DNA of 64,000 bases from Rodentolepis nana. Its lineage: Eukaryota; Platyhelminthes; Cestoda; Cyclophyllidea; Hymenolepididae. The stretch covers positions 1-64,000 of the forward strand of contig UZAE01012086.1 of NCBI GenBank assembly GCA_900617975.1. Direction: 5' to 3'. Both the position numbers and the translations under genes were made by a program. The notes below the pieces were generated by a model. The model made no database searches. It worked only from the letters and a program-made list of their open reading frames with translations, and had not been told where the DNA came from. Below, in pieces: positions 7,696 through 64,000 of this stretch (positions are counted from its first letter, which is position 1; each line of letters begins with the position of its first letter).

Positions 7696-7705
7696 ACATA
7701 ATATA

Positions 7706-8010
7706 GGGGGTGTGCGATAGACTTACCTCCACGTGGTGCACCCTGGGCAACGTATACTCATACGGCAAAAAAGTCTATTAACTGGCAGTTGACTTCAAAC
7801 TTCCATGACCCCACTGTATGTTATACTGGACCCCTTTCACAGTACTCATCTAGCCTTTTCTCTGCCTTTGTGTCTGTCTGTCTGTTACATCTGTGAATCG
7901 CTCTTCTTTTCCCCTGTCGAATTTTTCTTACTTTAATGTTCCTCCCTTCTGTGAAGCCCGAAGTCAACTAAAGGGCTAATGATAACTATCAAAATGCCTG
8001 CCATTTGATA

Positions 8011-8041
<31 letters not shown>
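7706..8041 (+). mobile_element. SINE-like element, copy 2 (with target duplication)
   Basis: 336 bp, complete head to tail, ending in a run of AAATAAATAAAT. Flanked by ACATAATATA at 7696-7705 and 8042-8051, a perfect 10-bp target-site duplication. This defines the element's ends and shows it is a retroposon. Confidence 0.92.
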
Positions 8042-16191: not shown

Positions 16192-16486
16192 TTTGTTTCC
16201 CATGGCAGGCGTTTTGATAGTTAGCATTTGCCCTTAGCTGACTTCGAACTTCACAGAAGAGAGAAACATCAAGAGGGGGGCCTAAGAGTGATTTGCAGAT
16301 GTAATTGAGATGGACACAATGATAGAGAGTAGGGTAAGGTGAGTACTGTAGAAGTGGCCGACTGTGACGTACAGTGGGGTCATGGTAGTTAGAAGTCAGA
16401 AGCCAACTGCCAGTTAATAAACTTTTTTGCCGTATGAGTATACGTTGCCCAATGTGCACCACGTGGAGGTAAGTCTATCGCACACA
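16192..16486 (-). mobile_element. SINE-like element, copy 4
   Basis: Reverse orientation; starts with a degraded tail (CATGGCAGGCGTTTTGATAG on +) and ends with the head ACGTGGAGGTAAGTCTATCG. An open frame across it (16130-16462, minus) is a by-product, not a gene. Confidence 0.85.
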
Positions 16487-16935
16487 GAAAATATTTAAGT
16501 CAATTCATCATCCAAAATTTTCGTAAGACTATATTTATTAAAGTAAATATAGAATAATTTTAAATCAAAAATAAAATCAAAGTAATTAAACGAATGTTTT
16601 CTAATTCAAATTGAAAGCGCTTTAATTTTTTTCTTCATTGAATAATATATTACTTGGCAATTGTTCTGCAGGTTGTGAATCCAATTAAAATGTAATTTTG
16701 GAAGTTATAACTTTTGATGAATGCGCTTGATTTCGTAAGAAATGATAAAAACCGTAATTTTAATCTATTTAATTCAAAGTTGAGAAAGATTCTTTGATAA
16801 ATTATAGGTTGGTTTAATTTTTTAATGCAAGTAATTTTTCCGATTGACGCAATTAATTTTCATTAATTCTAGTAAATTTAAAATACGACCAAAGGCTCTG
16901 TGTTAGAGTGGTTCAGACCTATTTTATACCAAGTA

Positions 16936-18077
16936 TTGGGTTGGCAACTAAGTCATTGCCATTTTTGTTGACGGATTCACTCTATACTTTCAATTGTTTT
17001 GTTAACGTGGCCAGAGCATCTAACCTATATTTTTTTCTTACTGTATGGGCTTCTAGGTTAATTAGTAAAAAATTTTTTTTGTTTAGGCAGTGTCGAAATT
17101 GGTTTGAAAGATTTCGTTCCAGTGATTTTTCACTGAAAAATTCACAACGATCTGGCCGCCCAGTCGAAGTAGATGAAACCCATATCAAGGCCATTATCGA
17201 TTCAAATCGTCACAGCACAACACGAGATATTGCAGAGAAGCTCAATGTGTCGCATACATGCATTGAAAAAAAAATTAAAAACCCTTGGTTATGTCAAGAA
17301 ACTTGATTTATGGATCCCTCACCAGTTAAAGGAAATTCATTTGACGCAACGGATTAGCATCTGTGATTCGCCGCTACTGAAACGCAATGAGAATGATCCA
17401 TTTCTGAAGAACCTAGTTAATGGCGACGAAAAGTGGATAGTTTATAACAATGTTACTCGCAAGAGATCATGGGTGAAGAAGCAAGATCAACCAGCCCAAA
17501 CAGTATCAAAAGCAGAGATTCAGCAAAAAAAGATTATGCTGTCAGTCTGGTGGGATCACAAAGGAATTTTGTATTTTGAACTTATGTCGCAGAACCAAAC
17601 GATAAAGTTAAATGTGTATGTTGAACAACTCGAAAAACTGAAGGATGCAATTGAAGATAAGCGGCCGGCATTATCAAATCGGAAGGGTGTTGTTTTCCAT
17701 CATCCTGTTAACGCAAGGCCCCACACATCTTTGGTTACTCGGCAGAAATGATTGGAACTGGGTTGGGATGTTTTGTCACACCCACCATATAGCCCTGACC
17801 TTGGACCTTCGGATTATCATTTGTTTCGTTCCATGCAAAACTCTTTAAATGGTAAAATTTGTAACAACGCGGCTGATGTCGGATCACACCTAATTCAGTT
17901 TTTTAATAGCAAAGACCAGACATTTTACGAAGGGGGAATTTTTACTCTGCCAGAACGATGGAAAAGGGTCATCGACAAGAACGGCCAATATTTAATTGAA
18001 TAAAGTTATATTTTTAAACAAAAATTCCGAATTTGCCTTCTTATTTGAAATCGGCAATGACTTAGTTGCCAACCTAA
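16936..18077 (+). mobile_element. mariner element (mellifera-type), decayed
   Basis: Terminal inverted repeats TTGGGTTGGCAACTAAGTCA (left) and TTAGGTTGGCAACTAAGTCA (right, reverse complement) match at all but one of the first 25 positions. TA dinucleotides flank both ends (16934-16935, 18078-18079), the mariner target duplication. The length of 1142 bp is about 150 bp short of a typical member. It is inserted in gene-free DNA. Confidence 0.95.
17086..18003 (+). pseudogene. mariner transposase pseudogene
   Basis: Aligns along most of a mariner transposase: helix-turn-helix part (SQRSGRP, STTRDIAEKLNVSHTC), catalytic VNGDEKW, second block VVFHHPVNARPH, third block YSPDLGPSDYHLF, end LPERW...NGQYLIE. 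Breaks: the N-terminal ~40 residues are unrecognisable and lack a start; a frameshift falls in the A-run near 17267-17275; an in-frame TGA is at 17749-17751. The second catalytic Asp (normally H-x-D-N-A-R-P-H) is replaced by Val with one extra codon. The closest group by recall is the mellifera subfamily. It cannot be active. Confidence 0.93.
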
Positions 18078-31544: not shown

Positions 31545-31677
31545 GTCCTCATTGGTTTGGCGATCGACCAATCAGGAAAGAACAATTTTCCGAGTGGCTT
31601 AGCACTTAACATGCTTTTGGCTTGCCTGGACTTAATAAAAACGACAACTAAAACAGGACAGCCTGTCGAGCAGACAA
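31545..31677 (+). promoter_or_regulatory. Putative promoter/5' UTR of the SLC17-like gene
   Basis: Two CCAAT-type boxes lie close together in opposite orientations (ATTGG near 31552 and CCAAT near 31569), about 110-125 nt before the ATG, in locally less AT-rich sequence. No clear TATA box at a fixed spacing. This is motif inference only; the real start could be far upstream if a 5' UTR intron exists. Confidence 0.3.
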
Positions 31678-32821
31678 ATGAATTGCCCGGATAACGTATT
31701 TGACCTAGAACATGGCGGCGAACAAATAGGCCTTAGAAAGGTAAATCCACCCAAAGTGACAGTGACTCAACGCAGGCAATCATCAAGCCGTAGTTTCGCG
31801 TGTTGTGGACCTGGAAAAAAGCGCTATCTTATTTCCGTGCTTTGTACGGCTTGTCTCACCATCGTTATCGGGATGCGAGCTGAAATGCTAAGTATCATAA
31901 CAAAATTGAATGATACGCATTCAGGAAGGCATGTAGAGCTTCCAACATCCGCCTTGGTCAGAAATTTCATATCACGAAATCATATAATGGTTCCAGAAAT
32001 GCCTGAACCACCTGCAGCTGATGATCATCTCTTTTTCAAGCCATCCCACCACCGTCAATTGCCATGGACAGCAACTATCACTGAAGACCTTGTAGAGAAT
32101 GCCGTTTTCTTTGCTTATCTTATTGCCAGTCCCATTGGTGGCTATTTGACCGTTCGTCATGACTCCTCCCTCCTCCTAGGATGTTCTGTCGCTATGACCT
32201 GCGGACTTAATCTCTTCTTACCTTTAGCTGAAACTATTGGATCAAATATTGATGCCAAGTTGGCATTGATTATAATCTTGCGGCTGCTTCAGGGAATGGC
32301 TGAAGGTTGCCTAATACCGGCTGTCTTTGGAATACTTCGTTATTGGAGTCCAACTAGCGAGAGATCAACACTTATTTCCTTGGCTGTGATTGGGGTATCT
32401 CTAGGCCCTCTAATTGGACTTCCTGTGTGCGCTGAAATTGAGCAAAAATGGGGTTGGGGTGTAGTGTTCTACATTTACGCTAACCTAGGCTTAATTTGGT
32501 GCATATTTTGGTGGCGAATGGTTGATGAAAAGCCCCAGAAAGATCGAAATCTCTCGAAGGCAGAAAAAGTTTACTTGAAAGTGAATACATCCCAACAATT
32601 GCTCTTTGATCCAAGCAATGTTCAAATTCCCTGGGCAGCAATTTTTACCTCAAAGCCAATCATGGCTATATTTCTCACTTATGCCGCAGATGATTGGACA
32701 TTCCAAATTTCATCTGTTTGCATGCAAACTTTCTACCAACAGAAGTACAATGCAGACGTGCAGAAAACCATTTTCCTTCTTTCCTTCCCCTTTCTCTCCC
32801 GGTCAATTTTTGTGCCTATCG
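31678..32821 (+). CDS. SLC17-like exon 1 (residues 1-381)
   Basis: Large first coding exon holding the N-terminal half and the first part of the C-terminal half, ending after F-V-P-I plus one base of a Gly codon. The donor is G|GTAAGT at 32822. Reading through the donor would add 16 residues and stop, so the longer open frame is not the real protein end. A 5' UTR exon or trans-splice acceptor upstream (for example the AG in 'aaaacag' near 31656) is possible but unproven. Confidence 0.9.
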
Positions 32822-35800
32822 GTAAGTTCCTTTCACTGCCTCCAGTCTTCTTTGGATGGCAAATGGCATAAAAAATTTAAAACTTAGTTGTACTTATTTT
32901 TTAAAAGCTCATTCGCCAGTTCTTTTACCTTTGCCTTTAAATGAGACGTTAAAGCTTATTTTGTTTATCTGATTAAAAAATAGCGGCTTAGTGGCGGCCG
33001 TATTTTAAAAACTCTGGTCTGGCGCCACAAGTAAGAAAATTTCGAAGTGAATTTCAAATCCTTCACTGATTCATATACACTTTTTGAAATAATTTTAAAA
33101 TATGGCTTTTTTATAACTTGTGTTCTTGAAAAATGACTATATCTTTGAGCTTTAATGAGAATGAGGTTTCCGAAATCCATATTTTGCTGTGAGCTGCACA
33201 GGAAGTGCTTAGTCCACAATTATCAGAGAAAATGAATGCGAATTTTATAGCTGGTTTTACTCTTGGCTATCACTTACTTGCCAAGCCAATAATTAAATCT
33301 AAAAAATTGATCTCGTTGAACGTTTATTTTTCTAATCAACTCCCAATTAATTTGTATCGATTACCGATCGGAAGCAGTAATTTCATTTAACTTGAAGAGT
33401 AAAAGAAAACAAACTCATATTTATTTGTTTAGAAGTTCGATTTTTTTTCCTCGAAAAGTGCAAGATGCGTACTTCTAGAATGACCTCCTATTGAAATGTC
33501 GTGATCTTCAATGAAGTACGTTTAGACTTCCTTTATGTAATTACGGCTTTAAGTGTTAGATGGTAATTCTTGACCGTACTTTCATCATTCTAAACAACTC
33601 ATTCTGGAATGGTACACCGCTATTCCTAGTCAATATTGGTGCCACCTGGCCAATGTTTTCTTAAAATTTATTCCATCATGAGAAAAAAGAAAAATTGTTT
33701 AAAAACTTTTCAGTTGAGTAGATAATAGGTGCTGTAAATTCAACATGTCGCCTTTACAGATGAAGAGGACAATTTCGTTTTTCTTTCCCGAATTTTTATG
33801 GCCTTCTTGTTGATTGGGCTATCTGCTTAAGCGCATTCCCCTTTCATTGTGGTAGAAATGTTCTCGCGGCAATCGATCAGAATGTCGTATACATCTACTT
33901 CCAAAAATAGGCTGAAGATACCGTTTTCATTCATAAGTACTACTTAATAAACAATTGATTGTGACAGGTCGCTATCTTTTTCGTAAGTCTATTCTGTCAA
34001 AATTATGACATAAAGTGGAATTCGGTTGATAAAAAACTGGGTTGCCTTTCTTAGTTCCAAGTGATGCAATGCGATATTTTTTCGTTCACCTTCATTAAAC
34101 GTAAAGGAAACTTAAATTGTTCACTTGAAATGATATGAATTACGAAACACTATGCCCGTTTGGGGTTGATTTATGATTGGGGTTTGCTATAACTACGTAA
34201 TGGTGCGCCTTTTCCTTCCTGTCTGCAATTCAACATGTGAATCTTAAAATTAGCGGCCAACAGTTGAAAAGAATGAAAAGCTCTAAGCGTTTATATATAT
34301 ATATTTATTTATTTATACCAAATGCCAGGCTTTTGATAGCCGTCATTAGCCCTTTAGTAGACTTCAAACTTCATAGAGGGGAAGGAACATCAAAGTGAAA
34401 AAATACGAGAGGAGGTTGGGGAAGAACAGAAGAGCGTTTCAAGGATGCAAAAGGGACAGACGCAGGGATAGAAAAAAGGTGAGGTGGGTACTGGGGAAGT
34501 AGTTGAAAGTGACGTACAATGGGGTGATGGCAGTTTGAAGTCAGAAATCAACTGCCGATTAATTGACTTTTTGTCGTATGAGTATACGTTGCCCAGGGTG
34601 CACCACGGACTCTTTTGCCGTGTATACGTTGCCCAGGGTGCACCACGTAAGGCCAAGAGTAAATAGATGGAAATCCAAATTAGAATCGAGAGAAGCCAAG
34701 AAGACCTTCCAATAAAATCACCAGTGAGTGCAATGTTCTGTCTCAGACATCCAAAATGAAGGCATGAGAGAATAAAAATTACAAATCACATGAAGAATAT
34801 GAGGGAGCAATGCCAGAGAAGTTTTGGTGTGTTTTCTTGACCTTCTGGGTGGCCTCTCTTGCAGAAATCGATGCAGTATTTTCTAAAGAAAAGACAAAGC
34901 TGAACGGAGATGTATCAATCATCTAAATACTCTCCTGAATTTGAATTTGAATTTGCTATGAAGTTTTGTAGAATCGCCATGTGTACTTCAAGAGGTATGT
35001 GTGTGAATCATTATGAGATATGTCAAAATGAAATTGTGCAAGGTCTTGAGTTACGATGGTTAAAAAGTGTTCTGCTAAAATGCCTCAAATCAGTCAATTT
35101 TGTTTAATCTTGCGTTTGCATTATGGCAAAACTTTGCACTTTTCAAAAGTTGTTCATTTATAATTTATTTCAAAGCATAAAAAATAGATGGGAGAGAGAG
35201 GGTGAAAGTAAGTGTTTACTTACTAAGAATTTGAGGGGGCGAATGAAAATGGTGCCAAAGTGCCTGACTTCATTTTATATTTATTTTTATCTATTTTTAA
35301 TTCCGGTACTTACGAATTCACTGGCTTGCTGTTGGTTATTCAAATTTTCAGAATTCACTGCTTGGCAGAACATCATTTGCCGGTCTACGATGTTTCGTGC
35401 ACTTTGAACAAGTTGTTTTGCATGGAAAGACCTGATTTAGAAGCTTTGTTAAATTTTGTGACATCAGCACTTGAATTTTAATTGCTTGATATTTAGCAAA
35501 GTACAATTTTAAAATAGCAGATTTGAGATGGATGTTTGCTTTAAGTCAATAGAGCACTCTAATGTGGCATTTATTTGCTAATCTTTAGTGTATATTTAAC
35601 CTGTTCATCTTAAAAGGCTCCCATAAATTTTCCATGCTTTTAAAACTATAGAAAAAACTTATTCAGTTTGGTGGCCAATCATGTTTGTGTATTGATTTTG
35701 CTCTAGCTTAAAATATTTGCGTTCGACAAGGTGAGGAAACTTTGATAGGCGATTCGTAATTACCAATTTTGTGATAACTCCGTTTTGGCCTGCTAAACAA

Positions 35801-58278: not shown

Positions 58279-58768
58279 CTAACGTCTATAGGTCAGATGA
58301 CACTTTCCACAGTACTCTCTATCATGGTGACTAGCCATGAAGGAACCGGCACCGCACTCTTTGTTAGGACATTCTCTCCTTAGACGGGTAATCTTGCCAG
58401 TGGCGTCAACCTTAAGACATTTCATTAAGTGAAAAAGAATATCATACCCCGTAGAACTTTAGGGTAGAGAGCTTAACCTTCTTTGGCTTCTTCTTGTTCT
58501 TCTTAGGTGTAGTATAAACCTTCTTTTTTCGCTTCTTGGCACCACCAAGGAGATCGACATTTAAGTCAAAGTGGGCAAGACTTGAAGAGCAAATATCCTC
58601 CAAAGAGTCTTCGTTATTAAGGAATGATCCCCCGTAAGAGAGCGACTGAAGAGAGCACGGAATTCCTTCCCGAGACTCAATCTGACGCTTGACATCATAA
58701 ACAGTATTATTGGCATCACAGTTGAGGGCTAGAGTAGACCCGTCAAAGCGCTTTAACAGCAATTGCAT
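58279..58768 (-). CDS. RPS27A: Ubiquitin-like/ribosomal protein eS31 (RPS27A) fusion, two exons
   Basis: Seen: exon 1 runs 58768 to 58448 and exon 2 58410 to 58279, joined across a 37-nt GT..AG intron, giving 150 residues. Residues 1-76 are a ubiquitin fold ending LLGG; then [16 protein letters not shown] and a basic tail; then the zinc ribbon (CPNKEC ... CGKC) ending HLTYRR. Known: eS31 is a 40S subunit protein made as a ubiquitin or ubiquitin-like fusion and cleaved after Gly76. The zinc ribbon is typical. The domain keeps K6 and K27 but has S, Q, R, S and S at positions 11, 29, 33, 48 and 63, S at 44, D at 72 and L at 74, so it is not functional ubiquitin; it resembles nematode UBL-1 or human FUBI. 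Start chosen at the ATG of MQLLL; a longer frame begins only at GTG after a stop. Confidence 0.93.
58411..58447 (-). other. 37-nt intron of the eS31 gene
   Basis: GTATGATATT ... GTCTTAAG on the minus strand. Removing it restores LKFYG-VDATGK, matching the family's 'LKYYK-VDENGK'. Without removal the frame stops two codons past the splice site. This is close to the minimum size for a metazoan intron. Confidence 0.9.
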
Positions 58769-61607
58769 CTTCAAGCACCGAAACCAACACGCACCAAAGA
58801 GAAGTGAGTTTCGCGCCACTGCAGTAGTTTAAAGAACTTTGCGAATTGCATGAAACATTTTTATGTGCTATATTGTGTATTTTCTAAAAATTAACTTTAT
58901 TAAATATTAAGAATAATTATGAACAACTATGAATAACATGACATACACTTTGCTTTCGGAGCACATATTTGAACACAAAATAAGCATCAAAAACATTACT
59001 TTAGCACTTATTTGTCAAGTGAATGGCGTTTTTAACGTTTTTTGTGAGATGCATAATGATCAACTTAATTATGTGACAAATTACTTCATGTATTTATTTC
59101 AAATAAATCAAATTAATTAATTAAACCAGGCAAGAAATGTCTACAATAAAAATGTTAACATTTGCCTACTTATGGATTTAATTCAACATTTTTTATGAGA
59201 ATAAGAAATAGATATGAATACAGTCAACTATAACAAATGTTTAATATTTTCTGTATTACATTTGATATTTGCCAAACCATAGCATCAATTGATGGAAAGG
59301 CAAGCATTTAATAATTATGCATCCAAACTGGTTTAAAGAAAGGAAGTAAGGCATTAGGAATATAGTGAAGGGGTACATTTTTTATTAGTTTATATGATGA
59401 ATTTATCTTGAAGAAAGATCGGTCGGTGAAATTTTCCTTCTTTTTGAAATGTGTATATTCTCATATAAGGCATCAAAAGCGCTATTCTGATTAGCTTGTT
59501 GGGAAATACCAATCCAATAAAGTAATTTTATTACCACGTTAATAGCCTATTTTGAAAATTTCAGTAACAATATATATGAAGTGGTGTAAGTATCATCGAT
59601 ACATTGATTACTTTTTACCAGTCCAATTAGCTTGGTTGGTTTAATTTCATTTTAAATTGAAAATTAACACTATTGAATCACAAATATCATTAATTTAAAA
59701 CAATGTTGCGAAATAATTAAAGTGTATAATCTAATATAGAGTTTAAGGTAAACACATTCACTTTGACACTTGCTAAGCTCCCTGTTGGTTCTTAGTTAAC
59801 CCAAAAACCATTGAATGCACCATTAAATTCGTAACGATTTGCAATTTCACTCTTTATGTTTCGAATAGGAACTATAGTCTACGAAAAGCACTGGAATTTA
59901 AAACAATAAAATCTATAGTGGTACAAACAAATGTAATTTTTCTAAATGAGTAATAAATATGTTTCTTAATTTTTCAGTACTTAGGATAAATTGTGCAAAA
60001 ACAGGATGGTATTTTAGCTAAGTTGTTAAGCCGTTAAGGTGAGTGATCTTTACAAGTTGAGAGTTAAAATACGTGGCAGCTCTAAAGGTATGTACTCTGG
60101 TGTTTTGCTAAGTATTTTGTCCCCGAAAAATCGAAACAGCGCCACTATATTGAAGGAATAATAAGGATATCTATATGATAGCTATGGGAAACGGATCACA
60201 TCGATCTAATAGGTGGAATTGTTCAAGTTACTCGTGCAGGTATGTTAATATGCTATTTATCTTAAAGCCTCCTCAATTTATCGAAAATAAATTATGTTTT
60301 TTCGTATCAATCTTGTCTCTTCGTCAATATATGCCCGATAATTAGTGTCAGAGAAGGTATCTATGTAGAAACAAGTCCACATGCAGACAAATGTGTAGCC
60401 CATGTGCATATTGAATTCGAGAGCTTATCGATAGTAGATTAATTTTTAGCAGTAAGTATTAATTGACATTTGCTGTCTGCTGTAAGTCTACTGGTACAAC
60501 TATTGATTCGATCATTGACTAGTTCAGCCTCCTTACATAATTAATAAAGCATTGCGGACCTTTCCGTTGAATTTGTGGTTTTTAGTTTGGTCCAGGGTCA
60601 TTAAAAATGTTTAAAAATATTGAATTTGTTTACAATCTAGTCGAATGCCACTAAAACGGCTTGAGTAAGGAGATCATTTCTAAGTTAATTTTATTTTCAT
60701 AGAAATGTTTCTTTGTGTCGTATTAGCAATGTTACCGTGAGAAGTGTCTAGCCATACAAAATTTATTGCACAAATATTTGGGTTTCCTGTGTTGGGATGA
60801 TCCTGAAGCTAGGTTATCGTAATTGACTCTTAATCTTCGAAATTGTTTGTCTTCAGCAGTTTATGTATAATGGTTTAGGAAATAGAATTATCTTCAGGCG
60901 TTAGATAAATTTTATTTGCATCTTAATTAAAGTAACATAGAAATACATTTCTTCGACAATCGTCATAGCAAAAGAAATTCATTTGTAAAATTTCCAAAAA
61001 GATGATTATTTTATCAAGCAAAAATGGAAGTTCTAAATGAACAAAGTACGATTTCGGTAAAAAATCGATAATGGTGTGTTAAGTATAGAAAAAAACAAGA
61101 AAAAATTTACCATGTTATGAAATAATATTTTCTGCATTGGGCAATATTCCCACTTATCATTAAAAAATTAATGTTTTATTTTATTTTCTACCTTAATATA
61201 TTGCACTAAGCTCTAAAATCAATTCTTTGAACACTTTGATATGAAGATAAAACAGATTTATATCATAAGATAGGATCAAAATTTGAATTCTAAACGACCT
61301 GCTCTTACGCTTAATCGATTTCACCAAGCATTTTGTAAATTCAGAATTTTATAAAATATCTATTTGTTTCATGTGATTTAACACTAACGAGAGTAATCAT
61401 TTTTCAAAAGAAAATGAAATTAATACATTTTGACCTTTAAATATGTATAATCTCTGATTGGGGAAAATTAAACATAAACATAATATGTTAATTTTTCTAT
61501 CTATTTAAATCAGCAACATTAGTTTTGTTTATATAGATTAAGTAAACGCACACATCTGAAAGTGTTCCTTTGCCTTAGTTAGGTCTGTACATTCTGTGTC
61601 TTCACAC
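58769..61607. other. Divergent intergenic region between eS31 and the NAA38-like gene
   Basis: About 2.8 kb of AT-rich sequence without recognisable coding. It must contain the promoters of the leftward eS31 gene and the rightward NAA38-SLC35C1 pair. No repeat of the families named here was seen. Confidence 0.5.
58796..58804 (-). promoter_or_regulatory. Candidate 5' TOP tract of the eS31 gene
   Basis: Minus strand CTTCTCTTT followed by GG, 28 nt before the ATG. A C followed by a pyrimidine run at the cap is the usual TOP signal of ribosomal-protein mRNAs. If the mRNA is instead trans-spliced, the pyrimidine run could serve as acceptor tract for the AG just before ATG. Confidence 0.35.
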
Positions 61608-61898
61608 ATGGCCTGTGCATCTCCAACTCTTCCAAACACAGTCTCAGAAAATCCTCAATCGTCCTTCTTATTAAACTTGATGGGGAAAAGGATGGTTGTT
61701 AAAATTGTCGATGGTCGAATTTTTGATGGATTATTAATGTGTACAGATAATTGTGGCAACATTGCAATGCGGGATGTAATAGAATTTCAACCCAAGGACG
61801 AAGACAATGCCGAAATTAACACTAGAAAGCTATATTTAATTACAATCCGTGGGGAATTCATCAAACAGATTTGTATTGCAAAAATGGACAGTCAATAA
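61608..61898 (+). CDS. Sm-like protein, probably NAA38/LSMD1 (NatC auxiliary subunit)
   Basis: Seen: a 96-residue single-exon frame, starting MACASPTLP. An Sm fold spans about residues 20-92: Sm1 with LLNLMGKRMVVKIVDGR, F-D-G and LLMCTDN-C-G-N-I, an acidic insert (PKDEDNAEIN), then Sm2 with TIRGEFIKQICIA. Known: the L-C-T-D-x-x-x-N pattern and the short length favour NAA38 (LSMD1), a subunit of the NatC N-terminal acetyltransferase; canonical LSm proteins of U6 or decay rings share the I-R-G motif. Start: the frame is open a little further upstream, but only from GTG; the first ATG is 61608. A CCTTTGCCTTAG acceptor-like site lies about 30 nt before it. An AATAAA overlaps the stop. The family is clear; the exact member is not. 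Confidence 0.82.
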   Translation: MACASPTLPNTVSENPQSSFLLNLMGKRMVVKIVDGRIFDGLLMCTDNCGNIAMRDVIEFQPKDEDNAEINTRKLYLITIRGEFIKQICIAKMDSQ

Positions 61899-61900
61899 AC
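61895..61900 (+). terminator. Polyadenylation signal overlapping the NAA38-like stop codon
   Basis: C-AATAAA-C with the TAA stop inside the hexamer, then T-rich sequence leading to the next acceptor AG at 61974. Such tight packing of 3' end signal and acceptor is typical of trans-spliced polycistrons. Confidence 0.5.
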
Positions 61901-61973
61901 TCTTTTTTATGCCATTTTTAGCTTCTTTTAATTATGTATATATTTTATTTTTGTATTTGCTAATTTTTTATTT

Positions 61974-61975
61974 AG
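61974..61975 (+). other. Candidate trans-splice acceptor of SLC35C1
   Basis: AG after T-rich sequence (TTTTTTATTTAG), 77 nt after the upstream stop codon. The next base opens the SLC35C1 frame (GCA GAA GCA) with no in-frame ATG, so a leader ending in AUG would give M-A-E-A-K. A cis-spliced upstream exon is the alternative. Confidence 0.55.
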
Positions 61976-62900
61976 GCAGAAGCAAAATCAGAGTATAACA
62001 TCCGTCTAATTTTTGGAGTCGTGTCCCTGTATTGGGTTGTCTCCATTTCCCTTGTTTTTATAAACAAATGGCTGCTCAGCAATTCCGATACATTGGTGAT
62101 TTGATATTCCCCTTGTGATACAATTTGCTTCTTTAGCTCGATGCACCAATGTTCGTCACTTGGTTCCAATGCTTTATCACAGTTCTGCTATGTGTAATTT
62201 TAGCAAAAATCTCTAGTACCATACCCGATAAATTTTCTTTCCCAAATTTGGACTTTTCGTGGAAAACTTCTCTGACTGTAACACATTCATTTTCTTTGAA
62301 ATAATATCTCTCCTTCTAGGTTATGCCTCTTAGTTGTGTCTTCTTTCTGATGATATTTTTTAATAACCTCTGTCTTAAGTACCTTGATGTAGCATTTTAC
62401 TTTGTCGCTCGATCACTTACAACGGTTTTCAATGTGGTATGTCTCTACTTATTTTCGTGGCTTTTCCAGTGTCAATACTTTCTTTGTTCAATTTCGTTTA
62501 GATTCTTACCTACCTGATTTTGCGCAAAACAACCTCATTGAAGGCTATAATATGCTGTGCTATAATTATCGCAGGTTATATGGTCAGTGTTATTCAAGAG
62601 AATGGGCTAGGTTGGTTTCTATTACAATATTTATTCTCAAAAATGTTTTTTTCTCTGAGCTGAAATCGTCTTGTCTTAATATGTAGGTACCCTGTCGCTG
62701 TCTGGTTTGTTCTATGGTCTCTCTGCAAGTTTGGCTGTTTCGCTTTTCTCCATTCTCACCTCAAAAGGACTAGCACTTGTGGATGGAAGTGTTTGGCGTC
62801 TCACTTTCTATAATAATTTAAACTCTTTCCTCCTCTTCATAATTGGCATTGCAGTTTCTGGCGAATGGAAGGAATTACACTATCTACCAACCACTTTCAG
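61976..62900 (+). CDS. SLC35C1: GDP-fucose transporter (SLC35C1), 5' five exons, 3' end beyond window
   Basis: Seen: exons 61976-62095, 62137-62277, 62320-62436, 62502-62610 and 62687-62900 join in one frame across GT..AG introns of 41, 42, 65 and 76 nt; a fifth intron starts at 62901. The product reads [20 protein letters not shown], then [49 protein letters not shown], and [13 protein letters not shown]. Known: these are signatures of the Golgi GDP-fucose antiporter of the drug/metabolite transporter superfamily, which supplies fucose donors to lumenal fucosyltransferases. About 234 residues are present; the remaining C-terminal ~100 residues (the FGFAIGYVTG-type segment) are not found before 64000. 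No in-frame ATG occurs in the first exon; alignment with the human protein shows only a short N-terminus is missing, so the start is probably supplied by a spliced leader. Confidence 0.9.
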
Positions 62901-64000
62901 GTATTATTTTCAATATTATATGAAAACCAACATGTTATTTTGAAATACACTGGCTTTCAGAGTTTGTTCTTGAGAAAACGTTTAATAGCTCTTTGTATTT
63001 GATCATATTAGTGCACAACTATAAAGTTTCATCAACCTATCGAGTTGAAAGTTTAGGTTCTGATTCCTTATTCTCTCAATTTACGCACAAGTCTCATTAG
63101 CAATTAAAATTAATCTCATAATTTGTTACCTTTTTAATAACATCAATTAGGCTATTTTCTGTTAATTGCTGTTAATATTCTATCCTTCGGTGATGTATAG
63201 AGTGGGATATTTTCTATTTTGAAGTGTATTATGAATTGTTTCAAATAATGAATAGCTATCAAACGAAATTGGCTTTCTCTATCGAAGATAATTTTATTAT
63301 TTATTTATTTTGTTAAAGATACGGTTCGGATGGAGTTTGTATACCTCTCGACGTTGCTTTTCCTAATAGAAGGACAGGTAGAATTTAGAGATTTTGAATT
63401 ATCTCTTCTCGTGATTCTTTCCTCTTTGTCTCCGCGACTTCGTGCCTTGGCGGTTTTCGTGCCTACTCTATTCGTTTAACGGTTATTGCTTTGCCATCGG
63501 AGTAGGGTTTTGCATTAGGAGATGGTAAATCTTTTGGGTAACAGACCTGTAAGTTGAAATCAGTAGGGATTTGCAACTAGTATAAGTCAACTCAACTCAG
63601 CTTAACAAGTGGAGTGAATTAACTTCCATCTCCGGTTTGGAAAACGTTTTCCAACATTCGCCTTAAGTGGAGTTGTTGTGTCGTAGAACATCTCTGGTGT
63701 GAATCTCTATTTCTGCCACCTAATTTATTAGCCTAACTCAATCTGTGCGATTTATTACTTTCCTCTCACTAAATGTCTACCGAATCCGTAGTCTTTGTGA
63801 ACGGGAATGTTAACCAGCACAAGGGGAATCAATAGCTTCGAGCAGTTAAATTAGTGTACATTTCTCGTGCCTTCGATCCTCCCTTTCCGGCTATGAAGAA
63901 TTAAGTTGCTTTCTACACAATTTCCCATATTTCACTGTAACGAATACCAATCTTTAAGGGGTATATCGTTTTCAATCCCACACGCAGTTCTTATTTCTGC
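62901..64000 (+). other. Intron 5 of SLC35C1, running off the window
   Basis: Donor G|GTATTATTTT at 62901. I looked for the next conserved segment of the family on + and did not find it before the window end, so the intron is at least 1.1 kb, far longer than the four before it. Confidence 0.6.

Follow-up and report, generated by a model that had tools for sequence, protein, structure and literature searches.

How does the message of a gene acquire an initiator methionine when its first exon offers none? The question is raised by a GDP-fucose-transporter-like (SLC35C1-like) gene near the end of a 64,000-nucleotide stretch of DNA from Rodentolepis (Hymenolepis) nana, a cyclophyllidean tapeworm of the family Hymenolepididae, the whole of which (the window) was analysed. 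Five exons of this putative transporter lie on the + strand: exon 1 (61976..62095), exon 2 (62137..62277), exon 3 (62320..62436), exon 4 (62502..62610) and exon 5 (62687..62900), the last exon found in the assembly. The encoded protein is 53-57% identical to five named GDP-fucose transporters (P0010, P0012, P0026, P0030, P0034) and matches the Pfam TPT family (E 6.5e-11). From 61976 the frame reads A-E-A-K-S-E-Y (codons GCA GAA GCA AAA), and exon 1 contains no in-frame Met codon, as the original prediction had stated; the first Met that the genome itself encodes in this frame is residue 45, in exon 2. The codon just before 61976 is TAG (61973-61975), which closes the transporter frame upstream, and an in-frame ATG at 61934 is shut off both by this TAG and by a stop at 61961. 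A usable start codon in the transporter's own frame is absent at the 5' exon.

Immediately upstream, on the same strand, is a gene for a NAA38-like LSM-domain protein of 96 aa (61608..61898; ATG at 61608, TAA at 61896-61898). The open frame that contains it (61560-61895) matches Pfam LSM (E 5.3e-12), and two relatives of the protein are 67 and 83% identical to it. An AATAAA motif on the + strand (61894..61899), a putative poly(A) signal, overlaps the stop codon, and the 77 nt between the two genes (61899..61975, + strand) have a G+C content of only 17%. This intercistronic stretch includes a CTAAT (61960-61964, + strand) that resembles a branch site in its motif, and it ends in the AG (61974..61975, + strand) that is the proposed trans-splice acceptor. 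The recomputed coordinates agree with the earlier description of a NAA38-like gene that ends at 61898, with AATAAA over its stop and an AG 77 nt further on. An Rfam scan at gathering cut-offs gave no match at the junction between the two genes.

We propose that the NAA38-like and transporter genes form a two-gene operon, the second gene of which depends on the AUG of a spliced leader, and we put the probability of this reading at roughly 85%. The two genes would be transcribed into one pre-mRNA, which would be cleaved and polyadenylated just past the NAA38-like stop codon. The downstream RNA would gain a spliced leader at AG 61974-61975, and the 3'-terminal AUG of the leader, in phase with GCA GAA GCA AAA, would provide the initiator Met of a transporter that begins M-A-E-A-K-S-E-Y.

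Cheng et al. in 2006 reportedly described the AUG of a flatworm spliced leader as an initiator Met. This role of the leader AUG is reported in PMC12582326, PMC7653826 and PMC3510090, and PMC5832876 repeats that flatworm leaders can supply the start codon. Leaders with a 3' AUG are described, with few exceptions, for 24 cestodes and flukes, H. diminuta included, in PMC12582326, where genes on one strand separated by no more than 300 nt are treated as operons; the R. nana pair shares a strand and is 77 nt apart. For E. granulosus, 143 of 187 leader-bearing clusters were predicted to be full length from the leader ATG, with the caution that other AUGs are often found within a few codons and may replace that of the leader (PMC3510090). 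Unlike the E. granulosus case, the R. nana transporter has no other AUG within a few codons.

Several observations count against the proposed reading. Leader addition was detected on less than 10% of the genes in all cyclophyllideans studied (PMC12582326), and the transporter is incomplete in the assembly, its later exons missing. None of these exons was seen by eye in the three forward frames of 62901-64000 and on to the contig end at 66562, nor was any found elsewhere in the assembly with a relative's protein or its C-terminal part, an empty answer that does not amount to absence. With the relative's protein, the only matches were to exons 2-5 of this contig and, weakly, to a single place in the rest of the assembly.

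The sequence around AG 61974-61975 has the character of an acceptor. Pyrimidines make up 75% of the 24 nt before it, and as many are found in the preceding 24 nt of only about 2% of the AGs of the window, on either strand. Its hexamer, AUUUAG, agrees at only five of six positions with the published leader acceptor motif UUNYAG (PMC12582326). When the 3356 + strand AGs were ranked with an acceptor profile, which was built from only four introns, all of the SLC35C1-like gene, 61975 stood 83rd, 61921 stood 88th and 61979 stood 574th. The near-equal score of 61921 (5.07 vs 5.12 for 61975) speaks against 61975 as the acceptor. With an AUG placed before each of four AGs (61921, 61975, 61979 and 61982), only 61975 opened the transporter frame: at 61921 a stop followed after 14 codons, the AUG counted, and at 61979 or 61982 the AUG led into a different frame with an early stop. 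A leader AUG joined at 61975 would be in phase, which by itself is expected in one case of three by chance; given the pyrimidine content, the profile rank and the fusion of the same pair in gene models of three genera, the arrangement of acceptor and frame is more than chance.

The start of the predicted protein was compared with those of its relatives, and the protein counts given here and below rest on the best 120 of 992 and the best 120 of 681 matches. In the M-A-E-A-K-S-E-Y protein, 19 residues come ahead of a conserved YW that lies in the first membrane segment. The same distance is 17-20 in all eight unfused named fluke proteins among the matches listed (P0011, P0012, P0014, P0023, P0024, P0025, P0026 and P0034, with P0023 labelled partial), although five of the eight are from schistosomatids and so not independent. 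The fused P0124 was not counted among these eight, nor were two models from free-living Macrostomum, P0122 and P0168. The YW anchor is present in 139 of 171 proteins, at a median distance of 24 and in 49 of them at 16-20, so that the 19-residue match is to flukes and represents no universal length. The original prediction had aligned the frame with the N-terminus of GDP-fucose transporters, and a leader-AUG start would lie at most two residues from the fluke starts.

Seven species account for the eight named cestode models among the matches listed (P0008, unnamed and with its start inside the protein, was left out), and by our judgement a plausible start of its own is seen in none of them. P0003 and P0123 are fused models, and P0006 begins without a Met. 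P0005 and P0007 begin one residue before the YW, and it is possible that a genomic ATG is found right before the YW in these two; P0004 and P0021 begin later. At its start P0009 agrees at 15 of 25 positions with the R. nana exons read out of frame, a figure that stands without a control. These models bear on an alternative in which cis-splicing links 61976 to a separate exon further upstream that brings an ATG of its own. Such an exon could find a donor, as a scan of 61700-61898 located GT sites in phase with 61976 at 61707 and 61776, and acceptors common to cis- and trans-splicing are frequent in flatworms (PMC12582326). The same source reports that cis-splicing is lowest at the acceptors of downstream operon genes in nearly every species studied, and this, with no start seen in any of the eight cestode models, makes an upstream coding exon very unlikely.

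LSM and transporter sequences are fused in three models among the best 120 of 681 matches: P0003 from R. nana, 100% identical over the query, P0123 from Echinococcus granulosus (representing a cluster of five) and P0124 from Paragonimus skrjabini miyazakii. An LSM protein (P0002) and a transporter (P0009) of Anoplocephala perfoliata bear one and the same gene label. If the R. nana model were correct, a donor at 61891, before the NAA38 stop, would be joined by cis-splicing to 61980, the stop would be removed, and a fusion protein would result; 61608-61890 joined to 61980-62095 and the next four exons reproduces the public R. nana model letter for letter. The acceptor that this would use, at 61979, is the one ranked 574th, 4 nt behind a better one, and the place of the join, as judged from the proteins, differs between the R. 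nana model and that of E. granulosus. P0123 runs from the LSM domain into AEARSVYNVKR, the counterpart of an 11-residue R. nana segment, so that it enters the transporter at AEARSVYN, for which the R. nana equivalent is AEAKSEYN. Fused gene models are described as frequent errors at operons, where cis-splicing at such acceptors is rare (PMC12582326). We regard a genuine fusion protein as very unlikely, and the intron of 89 nt (61891-61979) that removes the NAA38 stop in P0003 is probably an annotation error. The entry point of P0123 suggests that the same acceptor and frame are used in Taeniidae and Hymenolepididae. In Paragonimus the fused model contains SM-VENRRSETIRV, from which it seems that a genomic Met is present at that place. 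That a normal or shortened transporter arises with no leader AUG, from a non-AUG codon or from Met 45, is scarcely credible, since the latter has in its favor only that Met 45 exists and would lose the first conserved segment, which is common to flukes, a bryozoan, two annelids and a snail.

Initiation at a leader AUG within an operon is the reading that we prefer. From gene order, spacing, the acceptor-like site, the frame, the lack of a usable genomic AUG, the fluke-like start and the fused models, all read from DNA and protein sequences, we infer co-transcription, leader addition at 61974-61975 and initiation at the leader AUG. The closed frame, the fluke-like start and the fused models, together with the published leaders, support the original prediction that a leader AUG starts SLC35C1.

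The leader RNA gene was sought in the R. nana assembly (107 Mb in 4701 contigs). The taeniid leader sequence is given in PMC3795323, and in H. microstoma three different leaders from four loci, all ending in ATG, have been described (PMC7653826). When up to three mismatches were allowed, the 3' half of the taeniid leader gave three unconvincing matches in the assembly, its reversed control none; none of the three, when up to 160 nt downstream was inspected by eye, combines an ATG, a GT donor and an Sm-like motif, and at one of the loci the sequence stops after about 100 nt. No match in the assembly was found with the 5' half of the published leader, again with up to three mismatches allowed, or with a pattern of the leader 5' motif plus a gap, the reversed control of which matched once. 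Because the H. microstoma leaders vary and the assembly is in 4701 contigs, a leader gene that was not found is not to be equated with one that is absent.

Elsewhere in the window a SINE-like repeat of about 320 nt carries at its 5' end an HDV-like ribozyme (RF02682), identified by the Rfam scan. The repeat with its ribozyme is at ~7705-8020 (+) and a further match at 16417-16486 (−), the two with scores of 44.5 and 46.2 bits (cut-off 44), and the ribozyme core motif recurs at 103, 10660 and 10699 (+) and, beyond the window, at contig position 66477 (−). A genome search returned 701 first-look candidates; in the 40 that were scored, the ribozyme part is 96-100% identical, and identity over the whole repeat is ~80-92% among the matches listed. 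Eight loci inspected have a TAAA-type tail at their end, and several have what by eye appear to be target-site duplications. Three protein-coding features of the window may also be recorded. At 58442-58828 (−) a ubiquitin-like domain (Pfam E 2.9e-10), divergent by eye in its ubiquitin half, is followed by a basic tail, which we take to resemble ribosomal protein eS31. Two overlapping frames at 16857-17751 (+), the first of which gave Pfam HTH_32 below the cut-off, presumably resemble a decayed mariner-type transposase, and 31639-32871 (+) is an exon of a major facilitator superfamily transporter (Pfam E 4.1e-28). Our literature search found no report of an HDV-like ribozyme in Hymenolepis; such ribozymes are described in the literature from mobile elements of trypanosomatids.

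The mechanism proposed for the transporter is already known in flatworms, and the R. nana NAA38-SLC35C1 pair would be a new example of it. It would share with the known cases of leader-AUG initiation a leader whose final AUG is joined in phase to a frame without a start of its own, and differs from them in that the R. nana case is deduced from DNA and its leader gene was not found. With the flatworm two-gene operons of PMC12582326 it shares the common strand, a gap of at most 300 nt, an acceptor-like site before the second gene and fused models. The enolase operon of flukes, described there, likewise has a second cistron with leader trans-splicing, but it is an operon in flukes while the cestode gene stands alone, whereas the NAA38-SLC35C1 fused models point to both groups. 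The terms "fucose", "SLC35", "nana" and "Rodentolepis" are absent from the main text of PMC12582326, the supplementary tables of which may list the pair; "GDP-fucose transporter" was not encountered in the 20 papers listed of 637 in our literature search, although the pair may stand in supplements, and six flatworm terms sought in PMC7986045 are absent from it.

The chances seem to us about even that the NAA38-SLC35C1 operon predates the split between tapeworms and flukes, that the downstream gene of tapeworms lost its genomic start codon and came to need the leader AUG, and that an ATG of the gene's own is retained in flukes, Paragonimus for example. If the proposed reading is true, fused gene models in public databases would be corrected, and a human tapeworm would rely wholly on trans-splicing for the start codon of one of its sugar-nucleotide transporters. 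The pair in flukes would then provide the before-and-after of a gene that gives up its own start once a leader supplies one.
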